Of a stretch of DNA of 41,260 bases, positions 13,984 to 39,876 are shown one piece after another. A program made the translations under genes and the position numbers. Source of the DNA: a virus. The stretch is from the IMG/VR virus record IMGVR_UViG_3300005832_000036, positions 1-41,260 of that record, one strand, 5' to 3'. The notes beneath the pieces were generated by a model that saw only the letters and a program-made list of their open reading frames with translations, was not told where the DNA came from and did not search any database. Numbering within the stretch: position 1 is the stretch's first letter; each line of letters starts with the position of its first letter.

Positions 13984-15078
13984 GTGGCTACTAATAATTT
14001 TGTAGATAATACAAATGTACGAGCGCAGAAGTATTCCGAAAGAGTTTGGCGAGAAAAGTTACCAGAGGCATTTTGGTCTAAATTCATGGATTTTCCAATG
14101 CCAGGTGACAAAAATTTTTCTAAAGATCAATATATAATTGATCGCAATACAGGTCAGTATAGAGGTTATAGATCAAAAGACACATCCCCTATTTTTGTTG
14201 TTAGAGATTTAATGTCAGGTTTTGGCGATAAAATTACTTTTCCTCATGTAAAGGCTTTAAGGGGAGAAGGTATTTTAGGAAGCTCTGGTGAAACTCTAAA
14301 GGGTAGAGAGGAAGAAATGACAACTTCTAATTATGCGATAGAGTTAGAAGAATACTCTCATGCTGTTAGCGATAAATCGCCATTGGGACGTAAGCGAGTT
14401 CAGTTTGATATTCTTCGAGAAATGGGTAATCAAATAATGAGCTGGGGCGTTGTGAAAATGGACAAAAATATTTGGGAGGCATTTTATTCGGGAACACCAA
14501 CCACAATAATTTACCCCGGTACTAGATCAGCCACAACTCAATTAACAGATTCAGATGAAGATAAACTTTCTTTAAAGCTTTTACGAACAGCAAAAGCAAT
14601 CGCACGGGACTCCAATAATGGCGCACGTTATCTTATTGAACCATATATTTGGGAAGGCAAAGAATACTATTTTGTTGTGGGTGACAATGATACATTTCTT
14701 GATCTTATAAATGACTCCGAGGTTCGTCAGAATTGGCAACAAGCAGGACCGAGAGATATGTCTAATCCACTCTTTAGCGGAGCGCAATATATCACAATGG
14801 ATGGCCTAGTTATTTTTGCACATGAAAGAGCAAAAAAAGTCACCAACTGGGGAGCTAGTGCAAACGTAGCAGGTTCCAGAATTAAACTATTTGGTAAAAA
14901 TGCTATTTGTCATGCCTTAGGTGAACCTCCTCAACTAGTTCAGGAAAATGATGATTACAACCGCAAAAGAGGTTTAAGTATACAGTTTATTACCAAAACC
15001 TCACGACCAATTTTCAACTCAGTAGACTACGGATCGCTTGAAATTCGAGTATCAAGAACTCGTAGAACTGACGCTTAA
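13984..15078 (+). CDS. major capsid protein (N4-gp56 / DUF4043-like)
   Basis: The 364-residue protein starts at GTG with GGAGGTTTGAA upstream. It has the outline of the N4-gp56/DUF4043 capsid group: GFGDKITFPHVKALRGEGIL, then GSSGETLKGREEEMTTSNYA, an arginine-containing segment LGRKRVQFDILREMGNQI, and a C terminus with SLEIRVSRTRR. These proteins are thought to use the HK97 fold and build the icosahedral head. Position right after the scaffold supports the call. No protease gene is nearby, as expected for the P22-like assembly route. Confidence 0.8.
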   Translation: MATNNFVDNTNVRAQKYSERVWREKLPEAFWSKFMDFPMPGDKNFSKDQYIIDRNTGQYRGYRSKDTSPIFVVRDLMSGFGDKITFPHVKALRGEGILGSSGETLKGREEEMTTSNYAIELEEYSHAVSDKSPLGRKRVQFDILREMGNQIMSWGVVKMDKNIWEAFYSGTPTTIIYPGTRSATTQLTDSDEDKLSLKLLRTAKAIARDSNNGARYLIEPYIWEGKEYYFVVGDNDTFLDLINDSEVRQNWQQAGPRDMSNPLFSGAQYITMDGLVIFAHERAKKVTNWGASANVAGSRIKLFGKNAICHALGEPPQLVQENDDYNRKRGLSIQFITKTSRPIFNSVDYGSLEIRVSRTRRTDA

Positions 15079-15100: not shown

Positions 15101-15553
15101 ATGGCTGAAATTACAATGTTTGTTGATTATGATGTTGCTGATGAGCAACCGAACGGTTTAAAAAGTACTCAGGAGAGAATTATTGATTTTGGACAATCGG
15201 GACAGGGTGTTTCTGCTGGTGATGTAGTCAATATCTTCAAAGTAAAAAAAGGAATGATGGTTGAAGATGTTGACTATAGGATTATTACACCTGAGGACGG
15301 TGCTGTAGCAGGAACCGTTGGGGATGGCGATGATGTTGACGGTTATGACGCAGACGTCGATTGTGATGCGGTAGCAAATTACACGGCACACTCGCTACCA
15401 GGTACAGACGCATATGCTACAAAAAAGAAATATTATCCTAATGCTGACACAATCGATTTTATTCCTGATGGTGATTTAGACACTCTTGTTATTGCATTTA
15501 CTATGACATACAAAATATGTTCAAAATTAACCTCAAGAGTCCTACAAAATTAG
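15101..15553 (+). CDS. probable head decoration or minor structural protein
   Basis: The 150-residue acidic protein has a DVVNIFKVKKGMMVEDVDYR segment, then VGDGDDVDGYDADVDCDA, then AYATKKKYYPNADTIDFIPD. Phage proteins found next to capsid genes often show this order (beta-sandwich with xVGDGDDxDG and a (K/G)YY.xADTIDF strand). No signal peptide is present, unlike the next genes. A ribosome binding site AAAGGAGAAAACCA precedes the ATG. Confidence 0.55.
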   Translation: MAEITMFVDYDVADEQPNGLKSTQERIIDFGQSGQGVSAGDVVNIFKVKKGMMVEDVDYRIITPEDGAVAGTVGDGDDVDGYDADVDCDAVANYTAHSLPGTDAYATKKKYYPNADTIDFIPDGDLDTLVIAFTMTYKICSKLTSRVLQN

Positions 15554-15563
15554 GAGAAAAAGC

Positions 15564-16307
15564 ATGAAAAAATTTCTTATCTTAATTTTATTAAGTGTTT
15601 TATTTTCTGCTAATTCTTTTGGTATTCAACTCAAATCTGCGGGCATGTCTGATAAAGACATGCTGGAATTTGACACAAATGTAAAAGACTTCGCATTAAA
15701 TTCCGCACTTAATAAGGCTGGAATAACAATTGACAGTATAAATACGGAAGACATCAAGATAGTTAATCCCGTTAATTATACTTATTACGGTCGCTTTTAT
15801 CAGGCGTTACCTCAAACCATTGATTTAAGTGCTGTCGTCAATGCAAGTGTCGGAACTCAAGCAGTTAGTACGTACCGTAAATATTTACTTAGTGTAAATA
15901 CAAGTGGAACTTTCAACGTTACTGCTGGAGAATCGAAAGCGTATGATACTGCAACGTTACCGGAAGTACCTACTGGTTATACCGCAATCGGATATTTCAA
16001 AGTAAAAACCGATGCAAGTACAACCTATATCTGTGGTACTACAGGACTTGATGATTCTGGATTAACAGTTACTTATATTAGTCTTCGGGCCGTGACTTCT
16101 GGTCCATCGAAGGTCGCAATAAATGAAACTGTAATTGATTCAGATTCTACTACAGAATCGACAAGTTTGACGGTTGGTTCAGGTTTATTTTTGTTAGTTC
16201 CAACTTCGACAACACCCAACTCACCCGTAACAGGCAATATGTTTTACGATGAAACAGCAGGAAAATCATTCATATACGATGGTAGTTCCTGGAACGCTCT
16301 TTGGTAG
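15564..16307 (+). CDS. signal-peptide-bearing phage structural-type protein
   Basis: The 247-residue protein begins MKKFLILILLSVLFSANSFG, a clear Sec signal peptide with a probable cleavage site after SFG. The mature part is rich in Thr, Ser and Val and looks all-beta. Its C terminus PNSPVTGNMFYDETAGKSFI, YDGSSWNALW, matches the GxMxYDxxxxxxxxYxGSxW motif common at the ends of phage tail-fibre-type proteins. It is the first of six consecutive signal-peptide genes between the decoration gene and the gp4-like adaptor. A role outside the cytoplasm is inferred. Confidence 0.65.
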   Translation: MKKFLILILLSVLFSANSFGIQLKSAGMSDKDMLEFDTNVKDFALNSALNKAGITIDSINTEDIKIVNPVNYTYYGRFYQALPQTIDLSAVVNASVGTQAVSTYRKYLLSVNTSGTFNVTAGESKAYDTATLPEVPTGYTAIGYFKVKTDASTTYICGTTGLDDSGLTVTYISLRAVTSGPSKVAINETVIDSDSTTESTSLTVGSGLFLLVPTSTTPNSPVTGNMFYDETAGKSFIYDGSSWNALW

Positions 16308-16313
16308 TTTTTA

Positions 16314-16335
16314 GAGGGCGTCTTCGGACGCCCTT
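16314..16335 (+). other. UUCG-loop hairpin after the 15564-16307 gene
   Basis: GGGCGTC-TTCG-GACGCCC (16316-16333) is a very stable hairpin capped by a C(UUCG)G tetraloop, placed right after the TAG stop. It lacks a downstream T run, so it is not a classical terminator; mRNA stabilisation or weak attenuation is more likely. Confidence 0.7.
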
Positions 16336-16351
16336 CCGAACGGAGGTAAAC

Positions 16352-16699
16352 ATGAAGCGCATAATATTATCTTTTCTCGCTGTTTTTTTTATTTATGGAC
16401 AAATCTTTGCTGATGGAATATCACCTGTAAAAAGAATTAAATTTCAAGAACAAACAACAAAAAATATTCTAGCCTCTTCCACAGCAATTACTAGAACAAA
16501 TGATGGTTATGTTTATATTATTCCCACAGACGGGGATATACGAGTAAACCTCAATATAACCGCTAATGCAACGTATGATCCAATTGTATATCAAGATTCT
16601 AAATTTGTTTCTCCGTATTTAAAACAAGACGATGTTTTAAATGCAATTTCAGATGATGGTACTACGGTTAGCGTCACTATCATTGTTGAGAACTACTAG
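16352..16699 (+). CDS. small signal-peptide protein
   Basis: The start MKRIILSFLAVFFIYGQIFA is preceded by CGGAGGTAAAC; the upstream extension has no ribosome binding site. The N-terminal 20 residues form a Sec signal peptide with an IFA cleavage site. The 95-residue mature part is Thr/Asn-rich and beta-like. It lies in the run of secreted-type late genes. No homologous family is recognised. Confidence 0.6.
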   Translation: MKRIILSFLAVFFIYGQIFADGISPVKRIKFQEQTTKNILASSTAITRTNDGYVYIIPTDGDIRVNLNITANATYDPIVYQDSKFVSPYLKQDDVLNAISDDGTTVSVTIIVENY

Positions 16700-16708
16700 G
16701 TGATGATT

Positions 16709-18463
16709 ATGAGAAAAATATTATTTTTTCTATTTTCACTTTTATTCTGTGTGCAAATTCATGCTTTTGACATAACTGGTCCTTATGCGACCCCATTGAA
16801 TATACAGAGAGCGGTTTTAAAGTTAGGAAATGTGACTTTTAATGAAATCACAGTTACGACCTTAAACGTAACTACATTAAACATACCAATTGTGGATACT
16901 GCTAATTATTCTCTCGATTCTGATAAATTAGACGGAGAACATGGATCTTTTTATCAAGACGCTGACAATATTAATGCAGGAACATTATCATTAAACAGAT
17001 TAGATTCAAATGTTGTTACTAAAAATTACTATGAATCTATATCAGTAGTGGGTACTGTTGACGCAACTATTCTAAGAAGCTCAACTGTGAATATTAGTTC
17101 TGGATTTATAATAACTGAATCAAGTGCAAATCTTAAATTAGTTCCTAATGGTTCAGGAATAACACAAATAGGTGATGCGGGAAGTACAAGCAGAGGATTA
17201 ATCGCAAATGATGATTTATTTGTGAGTGGTAAACTTGAAGTAGATGGCATATCATATTTTGACGGGGCTGTTTTTGATTATAATTCTTTAACTGTACGTG
17301 ATGATATTCCGTTTGTATTTGGAAATTCTTCTGACGTTCAAATTGATTGGAGTACAGGACAAACAAATAATTCTTTGGTATTTGGTTTAGGAAATACTTC
17401 AAAATATATACTGCTATGTGAAACAAATGATATTGCATTTAATTTTGCACATTCGAATCAAGCTGATCCTACAATATTTATTCATTCCTCAAATCAAAAC
17501 ACCGAGGAGTGGATTGGTTTTACGCATGATAAAACAGACGGTATTATTTTCGTTGGTTCAGGAAATATTAATCTAACTTCTACAGTAGATATAACACAAG
17601 ATTTATTTGTTGGCGCAGGCATAGGTTCAAATGGAACAAGAGTCAATAAGGGTTGGTTTACAGACATTGATTTTACAAATTATCCGATGATTGCGGGAAC
17701 TGCTTTTTCCGATCAATTATTAAGAACTTCCGATTTTGTTACTTTTAACATTCTCAATTCTACAACTTCAATTCGATTGAATGGGAATGATATTAATACG
17801 GCGGGAACACTTACAAATGTCGCATATGAAAATCAGGCTAATACTTTTAGTGAATCGCAAACTTGGCAAAATGTTACAAATAATATTGAAAGATTAATTA
17901 TAAATGATGAAATATTTTTTGAGGGTGGTCTAAGTACAGATTATACCGTTTTTGCTGGAACGCTTGGATTATCAATTGTTGGGCAAACTGGTGTTGGCTT
18001 TATGACTCTATACCCTAAAATTGGTGACGGAACAAGTGACTGCAAATATTTTGCTGTAGCTTATGGTACTCCAGACACGATTTTCAGTAATAGTAATTCT
18101 CTAGGAATAGGTTTTGACCAATCGTCAAATCAATTTCAAATTAGTTCTTTAGTAGTAGGATCACCGCCATCGAACTACGATTTATCAATATTTACTTCTG
18201 GTAATGACGATCAATTATTACTTAGATATGATGGTATTACTGAGTTAACCACAACGACAAATATTGAAATATTAAATGTGACTCAAAATATTAAAACTAA
18301 CGATTGGGTAATAGTAAATGATACCGCTAAAGGAATATATATCGGGAATGATCCTAATGTTCCTGCAACAGGAGATCAAAGATTTATAGCCTCTGGAAAT
18401 ACAACTGTTATTGAAAGATTTGACGGTGCTGATTGGGTTACAGGATTGACTGTTACTTTTTAG
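16709..18463 (+). CDS. tail-fibre-like protein with signal peptide
   Basis: The 584-residue protein starts MRKILFFLFSLLFCVQIHAF, a Sec signal peptide with an IHA site. ATG at 16709 is best spaced from TAGG; 16700 GTG and 16703 ATG are alternatives. After it comes SDKLDGEHGSFYQDADNINA followed by GTLSLNRLD, the (K/T)LDGxHGSxY motif typical of phage tail fibres and tail-fibre repeats. The body is a long Ser/Thr/Asn-rich beta structure. The C terminus (GDQRFIASGNTTVIERFDGA, DWVTG) resembles that of the first signal-peptide gene. Receptor-binding or surface role inferred; export signals on a tail fibre are unexpected. Confidence 0.65.
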   Translation: MRKILFFLFSLLFCVQIHAFDITGPYATPLNIQRAVLKLGNVTFNEITVTTLNVTTLNIPIVDTANYSLDSDKLDGEHGSFYQDADNINAGTLSLNRLDSNVVTKNYYESISVVGTVDATILRSSTVNISSGFIITESSANLKLVPNGSGITQIGDAGSTSRGLIANDDLFVSGKLEVDGISYFDGAVFDYNSLTVRDDIPFVFGNSSDVQIDWSTGQTNNSLVFGLGNTSKYILLCETNDIAFNFAHSNQADPTIFIHSSNQNTEEWIGFTHDKTDGIIFVGSGNINLTSTVDITQDLFVGAGIGSNGTRVNKGWFTDIDFTNYPMIAGTAFSDQLLRTSDFVTFNILNSTTSIRLNGNDINTAGTLTNVAYENQANTFSESQTWQNVTNNIERLIINDEIFFEGGLSTDYTVFAGTLGLSIVGQTGVGFMTLYPKIGDGTSDCKYFAVAYGTPDTIFSNSNSLGIGFDQSSNQFQISSLVVGSPPSNYDLSIFTSGNDDQLLLRYDGITELTTTTNIEILNVTQNIKTNDWVIVNDTAKGIYIGNDPNVPATGDQRFIASGNTTVIERFDGADWVTGLTVTF

Positions 18464-18471
18464 GTAAAAAA

Positions 18472-19281
18472 ATGAAAAGATTCTTTTTCTTTTTGTTCGT
18501 AATTATATTTGTCAATATTCCGATTTTTGCAGGAATAAAAACAGATAAAATTTTGTCTGATAGTGGAATAATGCAACTTGGTGGAATCTGCGGGCTAGTC
18601 GTGAAATACTCCGATGAAGATACAATTGCAATATGTCCTGGCTATTGTGAAGCAAACGGAAAATTTTATGAGCTTCAAGAACAAACTACTCATGATTTAA
18701 CATCACTGGTATCTAGTTTTAATTTTCATTATATCTATATTGATGATGATAGTTCTGAACCAACACCTGATTTTATTGATTCTATTAGTGAACCGACTTG
18801 GAACGAAGTTAAAAATGGATGGTATAATTCAGTTGATAGATGCATTGGTGTTATAGCTAGTCCTTCTGGTTCAGCAACAATCAATTACTTTGATGCAATA
18901 GATCATGGAAAGAATGTACTTACTAAACACGGAGTCATAACACTTCCAGCACTATGTACAAACTTTTCTCCGGATTTTACTTGGCAATCTCCAAACGTGA
19001 ATGAAAGCAGCCTACTAACACCAGTAAATTGTTTAAGACTTTGGGTATGGTGTTCAAATGTCGATGCTGGTAATCCAATTGCAATATACTTTTCCTCATC
19101 CGAAATGGCTGCGATAAACACAAGTGTTTCAACGGGGGAAAATAATATTCAAGGTTACAACAACATGGCAAGAAACGCAATAATTACATTGGGTTCAAGT
19201 CGTAATATCAAAGTTAGCGGTGCGGATGATGACGACAATACTCTTAATACATCGCCGATTGGCTTTGAATATTCTAGGTAA
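18472..19281 (+). CDS. signal-peptide protein, tail-associated type
   Basis: The start MKRFFFFLFVIIFVNIPIFA is chosen over an upstream in-frame TTG because it begins a signal peptide with an IFA cleavage site; TAGGT lies before it. The mature protein starts GIKTDKILSDSGIMQLGG, similar to the mature start of the 19570-20700 product. The body is beta-rich with several Cys residues (for example CGLVVKY, AICPGYCEANG) that could form disulfides outside the cytoplasm. Total length is 269 residues. Confidence 0.6.
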   Translation: MKRFFFFLFVIIFVNIPIFAGIKTDKILSDSGIMQLGGICGLVVKYSDEDTIAICPGYCEANGKFYELQEQTTHDLTSLVSSFNFHYIYIDDDSSEPTPDFIDSISEPTWNEVKNGWYNSVDRCIGVIASPSGSATINYFDAIDHGKNVLTKHGVITLPALCTNFSPDFTWQSPNVNESSLLTPVNCLRLWVWCSNVDAGNPIAIYFSSSEMAAINTSVSTGENNIQGYNNMARNAIITLGSSRNIKVSGADDDDNTLNTSPIGFEYSR

Positions 19282-19290
19282 GGAGCATTA

Positions 19291-19566
19291 ATGAAAAAAA
19301 TAGCGATAATTTGTTTTATTCTTATTTTCTCAAATTTTATAGTTGCAACTGAATATGTTCTTCAAATTATTACGGCAAATAATAAATTAATTAAAAGTTA
19401 TACAGTAACAGAACAATGTCCTATTAGAGAAACTGTGCCAGAAGGAAGAATTCAAATAGTGACAACAAATACAACTGTTTTTGAAGAAATTAGAAATCAC
19501 TATAAGGTTAATCCGAATACAGAATTTAATTACGATCCAGAAACGGGAATAATTAGCTGGGAGTAA
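19291..19566 (+). CDS. small signal-peptide protein
   Basis: The 91-residue product starts MKKIAIICFILIFSNFIVAT, a Sec signal peptide with an IVA site, then a short beta-rich mature domain ending NYDPETGIISWE. AAGGAGCATTA precedes the ATG. It is packed between two larger signal-peptide genes. No family is recognised. Confidence 0.6.
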   Translation: MKKIAIICFILIFSNFIVATEYVLQIITANNKLIKSYTVTEQCPIRETVPEGRIQIVTTNTTVFEEIRNHYKVNPNTEFNYDPETGIISWE

Positions 19567-19569
19567 AGA

Positions 19570-20700
19570 ATGAAAAAAATTCTAATTTTATTTAATATTT
19601 TAATATTCTCGAGTAATGTAGTATTTGGGAGCATAAAAACTGAAAACGTATATACTTCTGATACTGGAATAATATCGAACATATCAAATGTCGCAAATAC
19701 AAAATATAAATTTTTAATCTATAACTTATCAGGAACACAAACACTAGATCAATATAACGCTGTGTATAATGCTTCAAATTCTAGCTCGAATCCTTACCAA
19801 TCAATCACATGCGCTAAATCGGGAAAATTATCAAGCATAACTCTACGTAATGGAAGTGGGGTTACCGCAACAAACTGTACAGTTACATTTTACGAAGGTG
19901 TTGGTAGAGGAGGAACTTTATTAGCAACTGAATCAAATCTAACATTTCCTCATGCAGCAGTAATAAATGTACAAATGACAGATTACCCTTGGCTCGTATC
20001 TGGAAATACATATTCTATTGGGATAAGTGGAACTAATTGGGGTACCTCAATAAATACCTCTGATGTATATCCAGGTGGCAACTTCAATGGAATTGGTAGT
20101 TACGATGCGTTTTTTTATGTTTATGTTGATGAAGGAAAAACGTTTGCAATTAGAAATGACTCAAATAAATTTTCGATTAACAACCTAGAACCTAATTATG
20201 ATTTTGAATTAGTGGGAACTAGTAATTTAAGCGGAGATTGCATTATAACTGGTGAGCGATATGAGAGTCAACTGGCTTATGGAGGAATGGGAGCTAGCTA
20301 TAATACTACCGCAACAAACATTGATGCTTCGGGAGTTTATTATGACGTTACTCAAAATATTCTTCCTTACCTACCAAGCAAAAATATTTCCGTAGCAGAT
20401 TCAATTTTGACAATACAAAAGGCTGGTATTTATAGAGTTCAGCTTAGTGCCTCTATCTCGGGATCAAATTCAAAACAATTTCATGGTGGAATCAGCAAAA
20501 ATAATGCACTACCCCTAGGGTGCTTAGAATTTAATCATACTTTTGGCGCAAATTCTACTGATGCAACTGTAGGTGCTGGTGGACATTTGTCGTTAGATAT
20601 AAACGATACCCTAAGAATTAAAATTGAAAATATGACTGATAATTCTGACATAATTTTTAGGAATTGGTACCTATATATTGATAAAGTAGCACCGAAATAG
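19570..20700 (+). CDS. signal-peptide protein with a C1q-like C-terminal domain
   Basis: The 376-residue protein starts MKKILILFNILIFSSNVVFG, a signal peptide, then SIKTENVYTSDTGI. Residues about 75-190 form a Gly/Thr-rich beta sandwich. The last about 120 residues read GVYYDVTQNILPYLPSKNIS, ILTIQKAGIYRVQLSASISG and LSLDINDTLRIKIENMT. This resembles C1q/TNF-type jelly-roll domains that occur at the tips of phage and bacterial surface proteins and mediate binding. A carbohydrate- or receptor-binding role is inferred. The ribosome binding site is weak (GGGAGTAAAGA). Confidence 0.6.
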   Translation: MKKILILFNILIFSSNVVFGSIKTENVYTSDTGIISNISNVANTKYKFLIYNLSGTQTLDQYNAVYNASNSSSNPYQSITCAKSGKLSSITLRNGSGVTATNCTVTFYEGVGRGGTLLATESNLTFPHAAVINVQMTDYPWLVSGNTYSIGISGTNWGTSINTSDVYPGGNFNGIGSYDAFFYVYVDEGKTFAIRNDSNKFSINNLEPNYDFELVGTSNLSGDCIITGERYESQLAYGGMGASYNTTATNIDASGVYYDVTQNILPYLPSKNISVADSILTIQKAGIYRVQLSASISGSNSKQFHGGISKNNALPLGCLEFNHTFGANSTDATVGAGGHLSLDINDTLRIKIENMTDNSDIIFRNWYLYIDKVAPK

Positions 20701-20710
20701 GAGAAAATAA

Positions 20711-21772
20711 TTGTCTTTTGTTAGAGAAAAAAATATTAATGATATAATTTATTCTGCGCTAAGAGAGCTTGATGCTTATCCGGAAAACGAACAGCCCGAC
20801 CCCGAAATGGTTAATAACGCTTTGGAAGCATTTCAAGATATAATTGATGATATTGAAATTAATGATGGCGTATCAATAATTCAAAAGGAATGGCGTCAGA
20901 GAACTTTTGAGGAATCTAACTCGATAAAGGGAGATACGGACAATTATTATCGCTGTATCAAAACTCATAATGTTCCAGATATTACAACTTGGCAAGCCTC
21001 AACAAGTTATCAAAATAACGTTTATGTCTATCCTACGACTGAAAATGGGTATTATTATAAAGCAATCGTAACGGCTAATCCTGATAATGAACAAGCACAA
21101 GGTTTATCAGGTTTAACAGAGCCAAGCTTTCCTGAGTATCAAAATGAAACTGTGATAGATAATCAACTCACCTGGAAAGCAATACCCGATACGAAACCTG
21201 AAACGGGTAAAAATTTCTCGGCGTACTGGGTTCAAGATGATAGTATAGAAAGTGCGGATGATTATGCCGTGAATCAAACTTATCGTTCTGCCAGTGATAT
21301 TTTACTCGATGAAGACGAGGCATATATTATAGATTGTTTTTTTAGACATATTACCTTTGACCGAACACCAATCGAAATTATAAATTCAAAAGAATACGCA
21401 AGCCTAAAATTGAAGTGGTTAAAAGGAATACCCACACGAATTTATCTCGATCATATCGATAAAAATACTAGGTATGCAAGACTTGAATATACGCCCCAAT
21501 TAACAGGGCCAAGTGGTTATGTTTTACATTATTTGGTAGCAAAGCGGAGTAAGAACTATAATGATGGAAGTGACAAATTAAATTATAGCGAAAATTGGAA
21601 TAGGGCATTAAAATGGATGCTAATTTCTGAAATACAAGGAGAGCATAATGTTTCAATAGAAGAAAAACATTACAATGATCGCAAAGCTGTTTATTATTAT
21701 AAAAAAGCATGCAAGAGCAAAACACAAAAAAGGACTAGGAGAATGATAAAATCATGTTTTACAAGACATTAA
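20711..21772 (+). CDS. P22 gp4-like head-to-tail adaptor
   Basis: The gene starts at TTG, with AGGAGAAAATAA upstream and no better ATG nearby. The N-terminal 60 residues (SALRELDAYPENEQPDPEMV, then NNALEAFQDIIDDIEINDGV) match the outline of gp4-type adaptors: helix, ALxxL/F, DxxDxW-like. In P22, gp4 binds the portal ring and starts the tail. At 353 residues it is about twice P22 gp4, with a central insert (about 85-190). No signal peptide is present, in contrast to its neighbours. It overlaps the tailspike gene by 19 bases. Confidence 0.6.
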   Translation: MSFVREKNINDIIYSALRELDAYPENEQPDPEMVNNALEAFQDIIDDIEINDGVSIIQKEWRQRTFEESNSIKGDTDNYYRCIKTHNVPDITTWQASTSYQNNVYVYPTTENGYYYKAIVTANPDNEQAQGLSGLTEPSFPEYQNETVIDNQLTWKAIPDTKPETGKNFSAYWVQDDSIESADDYAVNQTYRSASDILLDEDEAYIIDCFFRHITFDRTPIEIINSKEYASLKLKWLKGIPTRIYLDHIDKNTRYARLEYTPQLTGPSGYVLHYLVAKRSKNYNDGSDKLNYSENWNRALKWMLISEIQGEHNVSIEEKHYNDRKAVYYYKKACKSKTQKRTRRMIKSCFTRH

Positions 21773-24420
21773 AAAAGTTTTTAGTTTTTCTCTTAATAAT
21801 TGGAACATTTAACTTCCTCGTAGCAGCGGAAAAAGCACAGATAGTTCACTTTTTGATGGGTGGAACATTAAAAACTGATGGCCGGCCCAATGCTTATGGG
21901 AAAGTGTATTTATGGGATGATAGCGGAAAAACCACTGAAAAATCGGCATGGGATAATCCAGAAAAATCTGGTACTGAATTGTCAATGCCATTAACGCTAG
22001 ATGTTAAGGGTGCATACGAGGTATATGTTGATGGGCAATGTTACATAGAGGTATTTGATAAGGATTTAAATTCAATTAATACTTTTACTGGGCCTAGTTA
22101 CTTTTCCGCAGCGACAATTCCGTTGGTGATTGATATTCTAGCAAATTATGGCAATGTAGCTGATGGTGATACTAGTACAGGTATAGATTTAGCTATAGCT
22201 CAAACAACTTCGAATTATTCCTATGAGTTTTGGTTTGATGGTACAAATAATCAGGAATATGTTTTTAGTGCCAATACTACTTTTCCCTCAAATATTAAAA
22301 TAGTATTATTTCCGGGGGCGCATTTTACTAATTCCGCAGTATTAACTTTTGCTGGAAATCAGATTGAGTTAAATCAAAATAGTTACATCAATTCTACCGA
22401 TCAGGTCATAGTATCAGGAAATATAAAATTTGGTCAAAATACTCATATAACAAATAGCTCTACAACAACACTAAGAAATACTCATATTTGGGCAGATATA
22501 GGGCAGAATATTTTTAGGGGTGCTGGTTCTGTAACTGGAAATATTTCAAATAATGAAATATTTCCTGAGTGGTTTGGTGCAATAAAAGATGATTCTGTAA
22601 ATGATGCAGATTCGATCCAAAAGTGTTTTGAATTGGTGAAAAACAATGGTGGAATAGTCAGACTGGGCAATGGAGAATATACTTGTAATAGTCAAATAAC
22701 TGGATACAATAAGACATCTTTACTTGGTTCAGGCATTGATATTTCAATATTAAATTTTAGTGGAGCGACAGGTTCTTTTTCAAATAATGCTTGCTTATAT
22801 TTTGCAGGAGAAGGTCTTGAATCTTTAGGGACTCTTAATGTAGCAATAACGAAAAATAGTACATTTTTAACTCTATCAGCCGAACCCGATCTTGATGTGG
22901 GTGATATTATTTTTATATACGATTCTTCTGATACCAGCTATAGTTCCTTCCGTTCATATTATCGAAAAGGAGAAATATTCAGACTGCTTTCTCAATCTTC
23001 GAATGTACTGTTTTCAGAAATACCTTTGTATGACTCATATACTACGACTAACGTTACTATATATAAGCAAAATCCGATTACTTGCTCACTGAAAAATTTT
23101 ACTTTGAGAGGACAGGGTATTGCGGGGAATCAGGCAAACATTAAAATAGTTGATGGTTATAAATGTGTAATTGATTCTGTCAAATCATACGACTCTGATT
23201 ATGTTTTAATAAACTTGCAAAGAAATTTTGACAGTTCAATACAAAATTGCATCGGGTCGGATTACAACCCCGCAATTGGCCTCAACTATGGCATTCAGGT
23301 AGCTAATTCACAGCGAATATTAGTTTCAAATAATAACTATTCAACAACTCGACACAGCTTTACGATTGGTGGTGGTGATGATGTAGGTGATATTGTTAAT
23401 AGAGAAATTTATGTGCAGGGTAATATATTTTCAGGAATTGGATATGGTGGTCTTGAATCGGTCGATATTCACGGGAATTCAGAATTTAATACTATAATTG
23501 GAAATCAAATTTTAAATGGTATGTCAATATGTTCTAATTATTCAACTATTTTAGGGAACACAATTCGATCTTCGAGACAAGGATATGGGATTCTATTAGG
23601 AGAGACAAAAGTATTTAATGCGACCATTGCGTCAAATATTATACATCATATTGCTGATTCTCCTACGAATCGTGGTTGTATAGATTTTCAAATTGGTTCA
23701 GGAACGACAGACAATGGCAATTTTATTATCAAAGATAATATATTTGAAATGAACAATTATGACGGTATGGCAATTCATTTATGGAATGTTGCCAGCACCG
23801 CATCTTTAAATCTGGTTCTCGAAAATAATATTGTAAATAAATATGATCTGGCTTTTGGCGATTTAGGATTAACGATTAGATCGCAAAATGGTTATAGCTT
23901 TAAAACTCTTAAAATAATAGGAAATATACTAGAAAATACTGGAATTTATTGTAATAAATCAAACCCGGAATATTTGCTAATTAAGGATAATATAATTACA
24001 AGCTCAAATGCACAGGGCATTGCTATTAGTGCAAATCCAACCCCAAATAATTATGAACATTATGAGATTGTTGAAAATACGGTATATTGGTCAGGTAGCA
24101 CAGGAATTAGTGTTTTTGGTTCTGATGAAGATAATACTCTTCTAATTTTAAAAGATAATAGATTGGCTAATGCGGTATATAAAGGTACAACTGGCACGGC
24201 TGCTGCTGATAGCAATATTTATTGTGCTAATATGGATTCTCTTCATATTCAGAACAATACAATGGGAGATACAAGATCAAACCAGCAGTACTTATACGGA
24301 CTAAATAACATAAATAAACTTTACTATCAAGATAATCATGATTTTAATCCGGCTGCTGCTTTGGGGGTAAGCTTTACAGATGTATCGGCAACAAATAATA
24401 TTGAATCGGAAGATATTTAA
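21754..24420 (+). CDS. beta-helix tailspike with signal peptide
   Basis: The 888-residue protein starts MFYKTLKKFLVFLLIIGTFN, then FLVAAEKAQ, a signal peptide with an LVA or VAA cleavage site. A tailspike N-terminal domain follows (GGTLKTDGRPNAYGKVYLWD, DVKGAYEVYVDGQCYIEVFD), of a type often seen at phage spike N termini. From about residue 270, EWFGAIKDDSVNDADSIQKC starts a pectate-lyase-like right-handed beta-helix with many Asn-rich turns to about residue 850. It probably binds or cleaves host surface polysaccharide. AGGAG lies 12 bases before the ATG, slightly far. Its stop overlaps the gp10-like start. Confidence 0.8.
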   Translation: MFYKTLKKFLVFLLIIGTFNFLVAAEKAQIVHFLMGGTLKTDGRPNAYGKVYLWDDSGKTTEKSAWDNPEKSGTELSMPLTLDVKGAYEVYVDGQCYIEVFDKDLNSINTFTGPSYFSAATIPLVIDILANYGNVADGDTSTGIDLAIAQTTSNYSYEFWFDGTNNQEYVFSANTTFPSNIKIVLFPGAHFTNSAVLTFAGNQIELNQNSYINSTDQVIVSGNIKFGQNTHITNSSTTTLRNTHIWADIGQNIFRGAGSVTGNISNNEIFPEWFGAIKDDSVNDADSIQKCFELVKNNGGIVRLGNGEYTCNSQITGYNKTSLLGSGIDISILNFSGATGSFSNNACLYFAGEGLESLGTLNVAITKNSTFLTLSAEPDLDVGDIIFIYDSSDTSYSSFRSYYRKGEIFRLLSQSSNVLFSEIPLYDSYTTTNVTIYKQNPITCSLKNFTLRGQGIAGNQANIKIVDGYKCVIDSVKSYDSDYVLINLQRNFDSSIQNCIGSDYNPAIGLNYGIQVANSQRILVSNNNYSTTRHSFTIGGGDDVGDIVNREIYVQGNIFSGIGYGGLESVDIHGNSEFNTIIGNQILNGMSICSNYSTILGNTIRSSRQGYGILLGETKVFNATIASNIIHHIADSPTNRGCIDFQIGSGTTDNGNFIIKDNIFEMNNYDGMAIHLWNVASTASLNLVLENNIVNKYDLAFGDLGLTIRSQNGYSFKTLKIIGNILENTGIYCNKSNPEYLLIKDNIITSSNAQGIAISANPTPNNYEHYEIVENTVYWSGSTGISVFGSDEDNTLLILKDNRLANAVYKGTTGTAAADSNIYCANMDSLHIQNNTMGDTRSNQQYLYGLNNINKLYYQDNHDFNPAAALGVSFTDVSATNNIESEDI

Positions 24421-25889
24421 TGCCAATAGTAAATATTCCATTTAAAGGTCCAAATCGGGATACTGATGACACTTCCTTAAATTTAAATCTAAAATATATT
24501 AAAAATGGGTATATTGATAGATTAGGTAATATAAAAAGTATTCCAGGCAAAAGACTTTTCTGTGATTTAGGAACCAGTTCAAGAGTAGATGGTATCCATG
24601 AGTCTTCTCAGTTAAATATAAATACAAATAAAAAATTTGCTTATGTGGTTTCTGGAGGAAGAATATTTACATTAGAAGATATGAAGGGTAATTATCGGGA
24701 AATTACTGGAGATAAATTACAAAGTTATAGACGCACTACTTTTACCGAATTATATTCTGGTTCAGATGTTTATAGTTTTTTTGCAAACGGAGGACAGATT
24801 GTATATTCAAAAAGAGGAGAGACAACACAATTTCATCCTGATGTAGATGCGCCTCAAAAGTGTTCACATATAGCAAAATTTTATACCTATTTAGTTTTCA
24901 ATAAAGAAGATAGCAGTAGTTTTGGCTTTTCTAATCCCAATTTGCCTTTTACCATAGATCCTACTGATGAATATGACGCAGAAATGTCTGTGTCTAATAT
25001 TGATGCTTTGCATGTAGTCAACAATCAATTGATTTTGTGGTCAGAAAAATCAATTGAAAATTGGATCAATGCTGGAACTCCTGGCGATCCTTTTTTGCGA
25101 AGATTAAATACATACATAAATGATAATGGTATTTTGGCTCGAGATTGTATTTCAATAGCAAATCTACATGGAATTAATATACCTGTTTTTATTGATAAAA
25201 ATTTAAATGTAATGGCTCTTATTGGAGGAACGACAAAAAAATTGAGCGATCCCTATGAACGATACATTTCTGAGTTTCAACGAATCTCAGATGCGAGATC
25301 ATTTATTTTGCAATCTCCAGGACTAAATTTATATATCATGACTTTTCCCTCTGAAAATAAAACACTTGCCTATGATCTAAATACAAACAACTGGTATGAA
25401 CTGGGCAATTATAAATCTTTGTTAGAATATGACATTTATGATGGTTTCTGTTCCGAGTATATTCGAGATTGGAATAAGTATCTCATTGGTGGTGATAACG
25501 GTAAAATTTATGAGATATCAAATGATTATTATACAAATGCTGGAGAGCCTCTTGGATGTTCAATTGAGACAGGTCACATAAATCATGGCAATGAGTCAGA
25601 ATTAAAATTCTGTGAAGGTTTAAAGGCCAGGATAAAACGTGGATTAGGTAAAAGTTCTGATCCGACTGAAACCCCATTTTTTTTATATAGGCATAAAGAC
25701 AACAATAAAAATCAATGGTCAAATTGGAAAAAAATAAGTCTTGGTCGTAGAGGCGATACAAATATTAATGTGGATATTTTTCGGAATAGAGGCGGTAAAT
25801 ATTATACTAGAAAACATCAAATTGTATTACCTGATGATACAGAATTAGTTATTTCACAATTAGAAGAAAAAATTAGGATGGAAAAATAG
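24420..25889 (+). CDS. P22 gp10-like packaged-DNA stabilisation protein
   Basis: The 489-residue protein begins MPIVNIPFKGPNRDTDDTSL and has an all-beta, propeller-like sequence: KSIPGKRLFCDLGT, LHVVNNQLILWSEKSIENWI, LIGGDNGKIYEISND. This layout is that of gp10-type tail proteins, which in P22 plug the portal-tail channel and carry the tail needle. It follows the tailspike gene by a one-base overlap. It has no signal peptide. Confidence 0.7.
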   Translation: MPIVNIPFKGPNRDTDDTSLNLNLKYIKNGYIDRLGNIKSIPGKRLFCDLGTSSRVDGIHESSQLNINTNKKFAYVVSGGRIFTLEDMKGNYREITGDKLQSYRRTTFTELYSGSDVYSFFANGGQIVYSKRGETTQFHPDVDAPQKCSHIAKFYTYLVFNKEDSSSFGFSNPNLPFTIDPTDEYDAEMSVSNIDALHVVNNQLILWSEKSIENWINAGTPGDPFLRRLNTYINDNGILARDCISIANLHGINIPVFIDKNLNVMALIGGTTKKLSDPYERYISEFQRISDARSFILQSPGLNLYIMTFPSENKTLAYDLNTNNWYELGNYKSLLEYDIYDGFCSEYIRDWNKYLIGGDNGKIYEISNDYYTNAGEPLGCSIETGHINHGNESELKFCEGLKARIKRGLGKSSDPTETPFFLYRHKDNNKNQWSNWKKISLGRRGDTNINVDIFRNRGGKYYTRKHQIVLPDDTELVISQLEEKIRMEK

Positions 25890-30868: not shown

Positions 30869-31245
30869 TAATAGTTGAAACAACTAATAAAACCGATAAA
30901 GAAAAATCAGGATTTTTTCATATTCTGGATTGTCATGTAACATTTGAATTTCTGTCAGGGCCATGGGGACATGGCGCATTGCCTGATGGTTTGTATTTAA
31001 TGGATAAATGTTATGAACTTAAAGAAGACAAATCAACTCTACCTTACAAGGGAGAGTCAATAGCCTGGGTAGCAAATTTAATTCCGCAATTCGAAACTGA
31101 TCGTACAGATTTATATTGTCATGGCGTTGGAGAAAGAAGAGGAACCAAAGGGTGTATTGAAATCATAAGATATGATTTAGCTTGCTTTAGTTATTTGAGA
31201 AGCTTAGTCAATCACCAGAAAAAAATAAAGGTTGTGGTTCTATGA
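30865..31245 (+). CDS. L,D-transpeptidase-like (DUF2778-type) wall enzyme
   Basis: The 126-residue protein has SGPWGHGALPDGLYLM (about residues 31-46) and, near the C terminus, DLYCHGVGERRGTKGCIEI with His86 and Cys97. The spacing HGxGxxxGTxGC(I) is that of L,D-transpeptidase-fold enzymes including DUF2778-type proteins, which cut or link peptidoglycan with an active-site cysteine. In this cassette it may be the phage endolysin or a lytic effector. It has no signal peptide, so it would need the neighbouring membrane proteins to reach the wall. Confidence 0.6.
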   Translation: MIIVETTNKTDKEKSGFFHILDCHVTFEFLSGPWGHGALPDGLYLMDKCYELKEDKSTLPYKGESIAWVANLIPQFETDRTDLYCHGVGERRGTKGCIEIIRYDLACFSYLRSLVNHQKKIKVVVL

Positions 31246-31871
31246 TAAAAAAAATAATCATTATTTTAATACTTTTTGGGGCAGTCAGTGTGAATGCAAT
31301 TGAAAAGCAACGTTATTTTCTGATGGGTGGAAATAAAACGGAATCGTCTAGTGTGTGGAATTTTGAATATTTCCAAAGCTATAAGGATAAAATTGAAGAA
31401 TCTTCTTTTCTAGCAAAATATACAACCAAACAATCCAATGAAGAAATTAAAATACTATTCAATAATGAAACAGAAATCAATGATTCAAGTGATTATTTTT
31501 ATTTTGGTGAATATGCGAAATGTGTGTTGCTAGATAAGATTGCCTATGATGTTGGGGTTGGTTATGGAATATATACCTATACAAATAAAAAAACTAGTAA
31601 CAAAATATCCATTGCCTTAATCGAAAGACAAAATGAGTCTTCTTATTTAGAATCAATTATTTCTTTTCGTAATAAAACAACGCTAATTAGTAATTTTTCA
31701 AAAGCATCTTTGATTGTTAATTACAAATACCCGATTAATGAATTAGAATTAGATTTTGATTATGAGATTAATTTTTTTGAGATTTTAAATTTAATTTTTA
31801 ATATTGATTATTTTATGAATAATAAGGGCGAGACTTATTTGATTGCCCCATCTTTCAAATTTGAATTTTAG
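31242..31871 (+). CDS. probable outer-membrane beta-barrel protein
   Basis: The 209-residue protein begins MIKKIIIILILFGAVSVNAI, a Sec signal peptide with a VNA site. The mature part alternates polar and hydrophobic residues in strands and ends in a terminal phenylalanine (APSFKFEF), a typical outer-membrane barrel signature. The outline resembles DUF481-type salt-induced outer membrane proteins. ATGA overlap couples it to the wall enzyme. It may alter the host surface, for example to block superinfection, or help disrupt the outer membrane at lysis. Confidence 0.6.
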   Translation: MIKKIIIILILFGAVSVNAIEKQRYFLMGGNKTESSSVWNFEYFQSYKDKIEESSFLAKYTTKQSNEEIKILFNNETEINDSSDYFYFGEYAKCVLLDKIAYDVGVGYGIYTYTNKKTSNKISIALIERQNESSYLESIISFRNKTTLISNFSKASLIVNYKYPINELELDFDYEINFFEILNLIFNIDYFMNNKGETYLIAPSFKFEF

Positions 31872-31880
31872 GAGGGTATT

Positions 31881-32135
31881 ATGGATATTTTCGAGATTAC
31901 TAAAAATATACTTGGTTCAGTTGGAACTATTTTTGCGGAGGATTGGCCAAAACTTCTTTTGACTTATGTTGTTGCTCATATACTTAGTTTGAATCAAATT
32001 GCGAAATTTATTGTTATTTTTCTTAAAAAAATTGTCCCGCAACCATTTCGTAATGCTGCTCTATTATTTTTAGATAAACTTGCAAAAGCTATTGACAACG
32101 AAATTCCAGATGATATTAAACAACTTAACCCATAG
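31881..32135 (+). CDS. holin-like small membrane protein
   Basis: The 84-residue protein starts MDIFEITKNILGSVGTIFAE and has hydrophobic segments at about 25-40 (LLLTYVVAHILSL) and 40-50 (AKFIVIFLKK), followed by an amphipathic basic region and an acidic tail. AGGAGGGTATT precedes the ATG. It is the last plus-strand gene, next to the wall enzyme and barrel protein, so holin is the best guess. Confidence 0.45.
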   Translation: MDIFEITKNILGSVGTIFAEDWPKLLLTYVVAHILSLNQIAKFIVIFLKKIVPQPFRNAALLFLDKLAKAIDNEIPDDIKQLNP

Positions 32136-32470: not shown

Positions 32471-32629
32471 TTATTTACCCATAAATAAATGTAACGCACC
32501 GTCAAAACCACAAAACCGACAAATGCAAATTATTCCTTTGCGATCAAATGTATGTGACTTTGATGTAAACTCACAATTCGGGCATTTTAAATGTCCTTTT
32601 CTTCTTATAACTTTTTTTTCTTTAGACAT
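32471..32629 (-). CDS. small zinc-ribbon protein
   Basis: The 52-residue frame starts at an ATG overlapping the SbcC-like stop. It holds CPNC (LKCPNCEFTS) and, 20 residues later, CICRFC, a classical zinc-ribbon arrangement. No ribosome binding site is visible; translational coupling is likely. It sits between SbcC-like and RusA genes, so a nucleic-acid-binding accessory role is plausible. Confidence 0.55.
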   Translation of the reverse strand: MSKEKKVIRRKGHLKCPNCEFTSKSHTFDRKGIICICRFCGFDGALHLFMGK

Positions 32630-34157
32630 AAATTTTATTGCACTCGTCAAACACTAAATTATCATTATGTGTTACAAAAATAATTTTCTCAAAATAATTC
32701 TTAGTCGCTTTTAAAAGATCAATAATATATTCTGTGTTTTCAGAATCAAGAGTTTCAAATAATTCATCAAAATGAATTGTACTTACCTGTTTTTGCTGCG
32801 AGGAACTATTGTATATCGCTAGGGCAAGTCGTATAACAGTCTTGAATATTTTTTGCTCTCCGCCACTAAATAGTTTTATATCTAATTTAGAATTATTATT
32901 ATAACATAATAATTCTAAACTTTCTTTATTAGTGCCATCCTTATTAATTTTTATTGTTTTAATCTCGATCCTGAAATTAAAATCTTTTAAAGATGACAGC
33001 AATTTATTCGCAATATTCTGAATTTCGGGAATTGATTTTTCAATGAGTAGTGCTTGTATGCCGTTGGGTCCGAATGCTTCAAAGACATAATCATTGATTT
33101 TAATTTTTTTATCTGTTTTTAATTCATGATCTTTTAAAAAAGTTAGCTTCTTAGATTTTTCGTTTTTAATTTTATCAACTGTTTCATATTTGACTATACG
33201 ATTATTAATTGCATGTGCCTGTCTCGTTAATTCGGCAATTTTTAACTCCTGTTCTTTTATTTGCTTTGATAATTTATCTCTGAATGCTCTTAGTGCTGTA
33301 TTTTTTATTCCAGGATTTGGTATTTTCTGTATTGATTCGATTAAGTATTTTTTGAGATTATCTTTGTCTATCTCGAGTTTTTCCAGTGCTTCTTTTTTTT
33401 CCTGTAGCTCTTTTGCGTATCTCATATTCTTTTCAGTTTCTCGATGTTTTTCTAAAGTTTTTTTGTAACAATTATCTAATTGTTTAATCTCTTCTTGTAA
33501 TTTCTCAAATTCTATTCTTGAATTAACTAAATCTATTTCCAAAATTCCTTGTGATATTTCGCTCTCAATTATTGCCATTTCGTTCCTTATTTTAGTAATC
33601 TCTAAATCAAATTTCTGACGAATATCTTTAAATTTTTGACTAATTTCGCCAAGATGATCTAGTCCAAGTAAGTTATTAAATATTTTCTTTCGTTCCATTT
33701 GCGTTATATCGACAATTTCATTTTTAGAAAATTGAGAAGAAAAATAGATTGAAAAAAACAAATCCTTTGAGCATATGAGATTTTCGACACTATTATTAAA
33801 GCTGTTCAGGTCTGGTCCCGCTATAAGTTCGATTACATTATTAGTTTTTTTTGATAATAGAGCCTCTTGATTAATCGTTTTAGCCATTATTTTTATTTTT
33901 CTTGTCGCAATGTATGTGATATTAGAAACAATGAATTCTTCTTCAATCATACAGTCCCCAATGAAGTTTTTTGTAATGCCATTTGTTATTGGGCCACGAG
34001 AGGGCCAATATCCAAATAAACAAGCGCATATTGACTCTAGTATGAATGTTTTCCCTTTGCCATTGTTACCAACAATGCAATTTATATTTTTATTGTAATT
34101 TATTACTAAATTTTTATGCGGACCAAAATTTCTCATTGTTGTTTTAATTCGAATCAT
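32622..34157 (-). CDS. SbcC/Rad50-like recombination ATPase (T4 gp46-like)
   Basis: The 511-residue protein has Walker A GNNGKGKT (30-37), a long coiled coil (about 190-345), the ABC signature LFSGGEQ (from 429), Walker B with FDE near 463 and a VTHND His loop (about 495). It pairs with the SbcD-like nuclease, whose gene overlaps by 14 bases. Such complexes resect DNA ends for recombination-dependent replication, as T4 gp46/gp47. The hinge lacks the CxxC zinc hook usual in Rad50/SbcC, so dimerisation may differ. The length is close to phage-type short members. Confidence 0.85.
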   Translation of the reverse strand: MIRIKTTMRNFGPHKNLVINYNKNINCIVGNNGKGKTFILESICACLFGYWPSRGPITNGITKNFIGDCMIEEEFIVSNITYIATRKIKIMAKTINQEALLSKKTNNVIELIAGPDLNSFNNSVENLICSKDLFFSIYFSSQFSKNEIVDITQMERKKIFNNLLGLDHLGEISQKFKDIRQKFDLEITKIRNEMAIIESEISQGILEIDLVNSRIEFEKLQEEIKQLDNCYKKTLEKHRETEKNMRYAKELQEKKEALEKLEIDKDNLKKYLIESIQKIPNPGIKNTALRAFRDKLSKQIKEQELKIAELTRQAHAINNRIVKYETVDKIKNEKSKKLTFLKDHELKTDKKIKINDYVFEAFGPNGIQALLIEKSIPEIQNIANKLLSSLKDFNFRIEIKTIKINKDGTNKESLELLCYNNNSKLDIKLFSGGEQKIFKTVIRLALAIYNSSSQQKQVSTIHFDELFETLDSENTEYIIDLLKATKNYFEKIIFVTHNDNLVFDECNKIYV

Positions 34158-35220
34158 TTAATACCCCTATGATTTCATTTCTATTCAATCCTGCTGGAAT
34201 ACCTTTTATTTTTATGTATTCACCAAGAAGCTCAATAGGACTCATTGTTTTTTTGACAGTTTCGCATCTTATGATTGGCGTTTGCTGTACACAATTTTCT
34301 ATGAAATATTCTTTATGAGAAGGTAGTTTTTTATGCAGTTCTAAAGCTAGTTCAGAATGAAAACGCAATTTGATAATATCATGTTTATTATATTCAAGAA
34401 TTTTTGACAGGTCGTTCTCACTTTTAATATCAATCGTTATGTACTTAGGCATATCTATTTCAATATACTTTTCGTTAATGTTATTTTCTTGAATTTCAAT
34501 ATATTCAAATCCTTGCGGATTGCTTTCTTCACCAAAATTATTTTGATATAATGCGCCAATATACGGCCCGGATCGAGTATGAATATGTCCTAAGGAAATA
34601 TATGAGCAATTTGTTGCTCTGAGGTAATTATAATTAAATGAAAAATATTCATCTTTTACAAGATAGTTTGCTGGTAATTTTGTTCCTTGCAGATTGCAAT
34701 GACCTAGTAGAAAAGAAGTTCCGTCATGCTTTTCAAATTCATATTTGAATTTCCCTAATATTTTTTGAGTTTGTAAATTAAATAAATCCTTAGATTCATT
34801 TATCGTTTTATCAATTCCATAATTTTCAAAAAAATATTTTTTATCTAGCCACGGTAGAGTTCCAATTAGTAAATTTTCAAATCTCAAAAATTCGGGTTTT
34901 TCACTTATAAATATATTTTTTCTGTATTTTAAATATTCTAGTGACGATTTTCCGACACCAATAGAGTCATGATTCCCGCCAATAATCAGCACCTTTGTAT
35001 TTAAACTTAGAATAAAATCCAAAAAAAGTTTTTGTTGTTCTCCGGTTGTTTTGTAATTATCACCTACATTATATTTTGTAAAAACGTCACCTAAAAAAAT
35101 TGCAAGATCAACCCCCCCGAGTTCTTTGATCTTTTTGTATGTTTTGAATAATGCGGATTTAGCTCTTTCAAATTTTTTGCCTGTGATATGAATATCACCA
35201 ATTTGAGCTATTTTAATCAT
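34144..35220 (-). CDS. SbcD/Mre11-like nuclease (T4 gp47-like)
   Basis: The 358-residue protein carries the calcineurin-like phosphoesterase motifs in order: QIGDIHITG (Asp9, His11), IFLGDVF (Gly-Asp 44-45), IGGNHDS (about 81-86), LLGHCNL and SLGHIHT. These residues bind two metal ions for exo/endonuclease activity on DNA ends. The C-terminal about 110 residues should bind the SbcC partner. The start ATG overlaps the upstream stop by four bases; the end overlaps the SbcC-like gene. Confidence 0.85.
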   Translation of the reverse strand: MIKIAQIGDIHITGKKFERAKSALFKTYKKIKELGGVDLAIFLGDVFTKYNVGDNYKTTGEQQKLFLDFILSLNTKVLIIGGNHDSIGVGKSSLEYLKYRKNIFISEKPEFLRFENLLIGTLPWLDKKYFFENYGIDKTINESKDLFNLQTQKILGKFKYEFEKHDGTSFLLGHCNLQGTKLPANYLVKDEYFSFNYNYLRATNCSYISLGHIHTRSGPYIGALYQNNFGEESNPQGFEYIEIQENNINEKYIEIDMPKYITIDIKSENDLSKILEYNKHDIIKLRFHSELALELHKKLPSHKEYFIENCVQQTPIIRCETVKKTMSPIELLGEYIKIKGIPAGLNRNEIIGVLNDSN

Positions 35221-38835: not shown

Positions 38836-39876
38836 TTAGAAGATTGTTTCGATTTGCTTCATGTCATTTTCTAAATATTTGTGTTGAACGTTGATATAAT
38901 GATCCTCACCAATTTTGATACTATTGCCCATTATCAAAGCTAATTTACCCCGATCAACATTTTTCTCAGCCATAATCGATCCAAACGTCTTTCTTAGTGC
39001 GTATGGATTTAATTTTACGCCGATTTTTTTTGCTTCTAACCGCATGGCACGGTTGAAAGATTGACTGATCCGGTATGGCAAAACAAAGATAGTGTCTGTA
39101 AAGTACAGCTCTTTTAGCTCAAGAAGAAAAGTTTCTAGTTTCGGATAAATAGGTATTATTCTTCCTGGTTTATTTTTATTTTGTGAAATTATATTGAGAG
39201 TTTTTTTTTCAAAATCAATGTCTTGCCATTTCAGATTTCTTGCTTCCTTTGGGCGCATCCCTGTCATCAGCATAAATTGAATACAGGATGCTATCTTTTT
39301 GTTCGGTATTTTTTGTAATAATTCTAATTCTTTCTCTTCTAATCGCTCGGGCTTCCTTTTCATTTTAACTCTAAATCTTTCGATAATTGGTAAATTTTGC
39401 AAATAATCATTTTTTACACAAAATGTTAATATTTTTTTCAATTCAGCTAAAATCATATTGTTGTATGTATTACTAAATTTGTATTGTAGCAGAAAGTTTT
39501 TAAAGCTTTCTATGAGTCGATAATTGATGTCATTGACGATTTGTGTGTTGAAAAAACTAAGGTGCTTTGAAGTATTCATGTTTATAATAAAAGTTCTCTG
39601 CTCAATTTCTATGTTAATTTTTTGCTCAAGTTTTTTACTATATAGGCTCTTTGCCTCTTCAAATGTAATCTTCCGATCATTTTGGCTAGGGGAATCTAAG
39701 TATCTTGCTAACTCTAATTGAGCTTGTTTGGAATTTACGGCTCTCAAATTTTTCAAAATTTTTCGTTTCCTGATTTTAACCCCGTTCTTTATCACTGTGT
39801 AATTCTCGACAATGTATGCATATCTTTCCTTTTTGCCGTCTTTTAGTTTTTTATTTACCCATTGTATCGTAGCCAT
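38836..39876 (-). CDS. int: tyrosine integrase with altered catalytic boxes
   Basis: The 346-residue protein has the phage integrase layout: an N-terminal arm-binding domain (about 1-65), a core-binding domain (about 70-165) and a catalytic domain. Box I is MTGMRPKEARNLKWQDID with Arg208. Box II is PYALRKTFG with Arg295. The nucleophile is likely Tyr327 in DHYINV. Both usual histidines differ: HxLR reads YALR (Tyr292), and LGHS reads MGNS (Asn318). The beta-hairpin Lys is probably within NKNKPGRIIPI. It would catalyse integration at attP/attB. AAAGGAACAAAA precedes the ATG, and a good promoter lies upstream. Confidence 0.9.
   Translation of the reverse strand: MATIQWVNKKLKDGKKERYAYIVENYTVIKNGVKIRKRKILKNLRAVNSKQAQLELARYLDSPSQNDRKITFEEAKSLYSKKLEQKINIEIEQRTFIINMNTSKHLSFFNTQIVNDINYRLIESFKNFLLQYKFSNTYNNMILAELKKILTFCVKNDYLQNLPIIERFRVKMKRKPERLEEKELELLQKIPNKKIASCIQFMLMTGMRPKEARNLKWQDIDFEKKTLNIISQNKNKPGRIIPIYPKLETFLLELKELYFTDTIFVLPYRISQSFNRAMRLEAKKIGVKLNPYALRKTFGSIMAEKNVDRGKLALIMGNSIKIGEDHYINVQHKYLENDMKQIETIF

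Follow-up and report, generated by a model that had tools for sequence, protein, structure and literature searches.

P22-type spikes are not known to carry a signal peptide (SP); both their synthesis and their use take place in the cytoplasm. To our knowledge, assembly is treated as cytoplasmic until lysis for all known tailed phages. Tailed phages do use the Sec pathway for some proteins (for example, PMC7143992), such as lipoprotein spanins and secreted endolysins of the SAR or SP kind. However, the role of these proteins is in lysis and not in adhesion of the virion, in which they differ from the proteins described here. The closest cellular parallel is WceF from Pantoea stewartii, which is an exported trimeric tailspike-like beta-helix protein with a signal peptide (PMC7949094). 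It has a similar N-terminal domain, but it is a chromosomal biofilm enzyme with a Tat signal and is not a phage part. A full-text literature search, whose coverage excludes many journals and preprints, returned no report of SP-bearing spikes or fibers in tailed phages.

We analyzed the whole of one IMG/VR record, which has 41,260 bases (the window). It is a temperate P22-type podovirus whose late module includes genes for terminase (at 9101), portal (at 10712; phrog_156, E = 3e-45), capsid (at 13984), and a gp10-like protein (at 24420). As in phages of the P22/Sf6/HK620 type, and in the cyanophages Pam1 and Pan3, the spike has an N-terminal head-binding domain and a beta-helix body; the gp10-like hub, the P22-type portal, and the gene order of a temperate podovirus are also shared. 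Unlike P22-type spikes, the spike of the window carries a Sec signal, and so do all of its fiber genes (Table 1).

Table 1. Features of the window. A slash marks the predicted cleavage site of a signal peptide.
Feature	Position	Strand	Signal peptide	N terminus	Remarks
Major capsid protein	13984..15078	+	none		phrog_334, E = 2e-33
Small protein, decoration position beside capsid gene	15101..15553	+	none
Family A fiber-type protein	15564..16307	+	15564-15623	MKKFLILILLSVLFSANSFG/I	phage-fiber-type C terminus GNMFYDETAGKSFIYDGSSWNALW
Small SP-bearing protein	16352..16699	+	16352-16411	MKRIILSFLAVFFIYGQIFA/D
Fiber-type protein, LDGEHGSFY motif	16709..18463	+	16709-16765	MRKILFFLFSLLFCVQIHA/F
SP-bearing protein, no assigned family	18472..19281	+	18472-18531	MKRFFFFLFVIIFVNIPIFA/G
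Small SP-bearing protein	19291..19566	+	19291-19347	MKKIAIICFILIFSNFIVA/T
SP-bearing protein	19570..20700	+	19570-19629	MKKILILFNILIFSSNVVFG/S	Asn in core
Candidate tail adaptor, gp4 position	20711..21772	+	none		19-nt overlap with spike start
Tailspike	21754..24420	+	21754-21825	MFYKTLKKFLVFLLIIGTFNFLVA/A
P22/Pam1-type head-binding domain of spike	21832..22104	+			residues 27-117, directly behind SP
Pectate-lyase-like beta-helix of spike (LKA1 Gp49 type)	23197..23721	+			PF22442, phrog_13768
gp10-like tail hub / head closure protein	24420..25889	+	none		phrog_578, E = 2.8e-33
Small beta-barrel-like protein, near lysis genes	31242..31871	+	present (score 5.3)
Tyrosine integrase	38836-39876	minus

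Signal peptides on the spike and fiber genes

The initial annotation had claimed that seven late genes begin with signal peptides and that the neighboring virion genes do not. All seven ORFs are present with the same starts, and each of them encodes a Sec-type SP with a positive n-region, a hydrophobic core of 10 to 16 residues, and a small-x-small cleavage motif. Between the capsid and gp10-like genes, six consecutive ORFs and the tailspike gene all begin this way.

To score signal peptides, we used a strict home-made rule: a positive n-region, a core without polar residues, small residues at -3 and -1, and no later transmembrane segment. Six of the seven genes pass; the seventh (19570), which misses solely because of the Asn in its core, was recognized by eye. 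As background, the rule was passed by 45 of 3,944 long ORFs (1.1%) across all phage loci then collected, and by 0.16% of shuffled window proteins. For the eight genes at 15564 through 21754, the binomial probability that six or more would pass is about 6e-11. No SP was found on the scaffold, portal, capsid, 15101, gp4-position (20711), or gp10-like proteins or on the ejection proteins (26632, 27319, and 28385); for the capsid, adaptor, gp10-like, and ejection genes, this had been claimed. In the window, seven of seven fiber-type genes and no core genes carry signals, and the first interpretation, that the fiber and spike genes of a P22-type tail module bear export signals and its core does not, stands to that extent. 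Two non-fiber genes (31242 and 30611) also pass the strict rule; the product of 30611 is short, with a single hydrophobic segment.

Shine-Dalgarno sites lie 4 to 12 nt upstream of the SP start of every one of the seven genes, and no convincing site was seen upstream of the mature starts. The same pattern holds in two relatives, L088 and L168 (see below). Translation of these genes likely begins at the SP start. Among 16 SP-bearing proteins that we checked, none has a lipobox, a T9SS motif, LPXTG, or a C-terminal transmembrane segment, and a Pfam search of the window proteins gave no Por-secretion match. We strongly infer that the seven fiber- or spike-type proteins are exported via Sec. Disulfide formation is unsupported as the reason for export: cysteines are not enriched in the exported proteins (0.67% versus 0.53%), so oxidative folding does not account for it.

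As for the individual proteins, an LDGxHGSxY motif had been noted in the 16709 product, and it is there at residue 74; this protein has no family match in Pfam and PHROG-type searches. The products of 18472 and 19570 have zero tblastn matches in phages. Homologs of the candidate adaptor (20711) occupy the equivalent position in L168 (39%) and L174 (34%), and the PHROG matches of this protein are weak only. The small protein beside the capsid gene (15101) is conserved in L088, L168, L172, and L174. No gp26-type needle was recognized among the products of the window.

Relatives with and without signal peptides

Relatives were found by scanning IMG/VR with capsid and terminase alignments, and a further scan added more distant phages. 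A search for homologous gene runs, which the initial annotation had proposed, identified four more SP-bearing uncultivated phages: L088, L168/G001, L274/G005, and L279/G006. The capsids of L088 and L168/G001 are 65% and 61% identical to that of the window. In L088, SPs are present on all three of the genes visible past the decoration gene (9997, 10776, and 12774). In L168/G001, they are present on 11141 (family A), on 12377 (a homolog of the 16352 product, with 28% identity), and on the spike (14270), and there is none on the gp4-position, gp10-like, or ejection genes. The SP of the L168 spike is less regular in its core and does not pass the strict rule; much of it is read, in a different frame, from the stretch (14270-14339) that the spike gene shares with the gp4-position gene at the 3' end of the latter. 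L274/G005 has at least six SP genes, including the spike and family A, and L279/G006 has four, with the same split between SP and no SP. Family A has SPs in L088 (two copies), L168, L274, and L279 as well as in the window, and the mature parts from these five phages share as little as 22 to 59% identity even as the SP features are kept.

Homologs that start past the hydrophobic stretch, which the initial annotation had named as a finding that would refute it, do exist in sister phages (L172, L174, L265, L267, L269, L271, and L272), but the four phages above share the SPs. Two of the sisters, L172 and L174/G004, are 50 to 53% identical to the window in terminase and 43 to 44% identical in capsid (44% and 43%, respectively). 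At positions corresponding to those in the window, L172 encodes a family A homolog and L174 a spike homolog, but these begin at the mature N terminus, with no signal. Family A of L172 (leave-one-out E = 3e-23) starts with MSYDIKASGF, exactly at the post-SP sequence YEIKPGGF of L168, and the L174 spike starts with MVDLIAKQVDF, at the post-SP sequence EARQIDF of L168. SP-less spikes are found in L174, L262, L265, L267, L269, L271, and L272. In phages with and without SPs, family A and the spike keep their positions beside the capsid and gp4/gp10 genes. Given the SP-less homologs in sister phages and the four phages that share the signals, the SP is best read as having been added to virion proteins that already existed, and not as a miscalled start. 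GenBank phages that share the core gene order (C72C1 and the Manatee Spring phages) have no SP on their virion genes. We dropped L275 as an SP-less member of family A (leave-one-out E = 0.17).

The concatenated, portal, and capsid trees unite the window with L088 and L168 (98 to 100% support) in a clade that is not resolved in the terminase tree. SP-bearing phages are not monophyletic on a broader capsid tree: they lie in three places, which implies a Fitch minimum of three changes. In a tree of the short head-binding domain, L274 lies among SP-less spikes (80 to 93% support), and the window and L168 lie near the SP-less L174. The three changes on the capsid tree and the placement of L274 suggest, as the simplest reading, that SPs were probably gained repeatedly. 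However, the polarity and number of these gains are uncertain because the gp10 tree partly conflicts with the capsid tree. Gene exchange may possibly lie behind the distribution of SPs.

Three of the SP-bearing contigs come from a co-assembly from Ace Lake (metagenome 3300035698). This anoxic Antarctic lake contains Cloacimonadota and Omnitrophota among many others (PMC8542988), and we take its community as a lead only toward the host. A scan of genome contigs found distant terminases only, and no host. The integrase of the window had no match among plasmids, and peptide patterns derived from its portal and gp10 had no matches.

SP-bearing phages also encode small SP proteins with beta-barrel-like C termini near their late or lysis genes (window, 31242-31871; L168:3863-4339; and L291, or G005 31480-31881). 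The product of 31242 ends in ...SFKFEF and is possibly linked to the presence of SPs on fibers; it has no detectable sequence similarity to the barrel-like SP protein on the lysis side of G001. SP-bearing late genes are found in two other contigs as well. In L204 (13500-18408), an HK97-type contig, SP genes lie right after the capsid gene (13500), and an SP gene of the late region, at 16330, encodes a GH10-xylanase-like protein. In L160 (475-4672), a distant relative, three consecutive SP genes (242, 771, and 380 amino acids) lie just upstream of the terminase. Neither contig was counted, as our evidence does not indicate homology.

The head-binding domain of the spike

The beta-helix that had been proposed for the tailspike, of the right-handed type, is borne out by matches to PF22442 (residues 482-656, E = 1.5e-14) and phrog_13768 (E = 4.6e-45); the Pfam matches of this protein are pectate-lyase and TSP-Ig. 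A profile of the head-binding domain built from mixed sequences matches the head-binding domain of the Pam1 tailspike (7eeq, E = 1e-8) and the Pan3 tail spikes (9vyg, E = 3e-8). The AlphaFold models had low confidence (pLDDT of 52 and 48). With the low-confidence spike model, the best Foldseek matches were the spikes of P22 (2xc1/2vnl), Sf6, and Pan3, with E values of 1e-4 to 1e-3. VIA-align gave Z scores of 6 to 7 for the spike domain over 73 to 79 residues, as compared to about 5 for unrelated rows. We do not claim a fold for family A, whose AlphaFold model is low confidence.

We compared the head-binding-domain profile to all of the phage ORFs that we had collected. The domain starts at residues 3 to 5 in the SP-less spikes (L174, L262, L265, L267, L269, L271, and L272) and at residues 24 to 32 in the SP-bearing spikes (the window, L168, L274, and L279). 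All four of the SP-bearing spikes are recovered (E = 1e-14 to 6e-30) by a profile built from SP-less spikes only; a profile of SP-bearing spikes likewise recovers SP-less ones. It is well supported that SP-bearing spikes still carry the hub-binding part and retain virion binding. Since the domain is recognizable in these spikes, selection probably continues to act on their binding to the virion.

A possible route of export and assembly

Our best explanation, to which we would give an even chance, is that spikes and fibers leave the cytoplasm through Sec, undergo maturation in the periplasm, and are joined to cytoplasmic heads only at lysis. The broader claim, that some tailed phages finish their virions outside of the cytoplasm by a route that was gained repeatedly by placing SPs before existing virion proteins, we put forward more tentatively, as a little short of an even bet. 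Under this proposal, Sec signal peptides would have been added to the genes for the receptor-binding spikes and fibers of a P22-type podovirus. The head, filled with DNA, and its core of portal, gp4-position, and gp10-like proteins would be built in the cytoplasm, and Sec would export the spikes and fibers while they are unfolded. These would lose the SP and would fold and trimerize in the periplasm (or outside), and the head-binding domain of the spike would dock on the tail hub once lysis mixes heads with periplasm, so that two compartments would take part in finishing the tail. The signals, the likely translation starts, the conservation across five phages, the SP-less homologs in sister phages, and the intact head-binding domain form the basis in sequence; from these we infer export, SP cleavage, and attachment after export. 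A likely reason for such a route is that receptor-binding enzymes would be kept away from the cytoplasm or from intermediates of their own receptor, or that they could strip glycans from the producing cell ahead of release. Heads and tail parts of P22 are reported to join in vitro (Israel et al. 1967, as cited in PMC3741392), so late joining is chemically possible. On the other hand, the burst would dilute periplasmic spikes, which would make joining after lysis costly.

We also considered whether the exported proteins might act on the producing cell, by coating its surface or trimming its own polysaccharide, with attachment to the virion being secondary or lost. The effects might include superinfection exclusion, self-clearance, or help in lysis or biofilm escape. 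Bacteria do have exported tailspike-fold enzymes, such as WceF (PMC7949094). In structural comparisons, the spike domain matches the N-terminal domain of WceF, among others (6tgf, Z = 6.1), and this parallel keeps self-trimming alive; the small barrel-like SP proteins of the SP-bearing phages would also fit. However, the head-binding domain is kept, with good scores, the genes occupy a structural position between capsid and gp10, the proteins carry no anchoring signal, and sister phages have homologs without SPs. We consider action on the producing cell to be unlikely but worth keeping in view. Among the options that were first offered, attachment to the virion is favored over permanent decoration of the host, given the retained domain and the lack of a sorting or anchor signal.

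Another possibility is that the hydrophobic N terminus is not cleaved and tethers the proteins to the inner membrane, so that heads dock on patches of spikes before lysis. Sec-targeted N termini can persist as membrane anchors, tethering would gather all of the fiber proteins on a single surface, and the c-region of the L168 spike is irregular. But all seven signals in the window resemble cleaved SPs in that the core is short and the -3 and -1 residues are small, and tethered proteins would point into the periplasm and not toward the heads. This seems quite improbable. Slightly more doubtful still is that the block is cargo (morons), a set of secreted host adhesins or enzymes that have nothing to do with the virion. 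Several proteins of the block have no family match, and other phages have SP-bearing enzymes in their late regions, such as the GH10-like protein of L204, but morons would not explain why the spike bears a tailspike head-binding domain or why family A and the spike hold their places by the capsid and gp4/gp10 genes with or without an SP. Finally, although SP-less homologs begin at the mature position, we reject the idea that translation starts downstream, with the hydrophobic stretches never made or a minor form, as very improbable, because of the Shine-Dalgarno sites and the conservation of the SPs.

In related phages, some spikes carry an export signal and their homologs lack it, which amounts to a comparison run by evolution. 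If the spikes and fibers are indeed exported, then receptor-binding proteins could be provided extracellularly, in trans, phages in co-infected communities could mix their spikes, and spikes could act on the host envelope before lysis. Export would also imply a new rule for annotation, as SP-bearing fiber genes may be taken for host genes and disregarded.

The genomes have a few other features of note. The window encodes a pair of SbcC- and SbcD-like proteins (32622-35220, minus strand), in a temperate podovirus; a search of phages with the SbcD-like protein gave no match, and G001 encodes a 35% homolog. An 80-amino-acid ORF at 7363-7605 matches PF00145 (E = 1e-11), the C-5 cytosine DNA methylases, over their first part only and is apparently a truncated methyltransferase. 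Similar tandem-repeat ORFs (VMRGYTVMQGYP...) lie at both ends of G005 (L290:83-442 and L292, or G005 41780-42337), and these are possibly assembly-end repeats.
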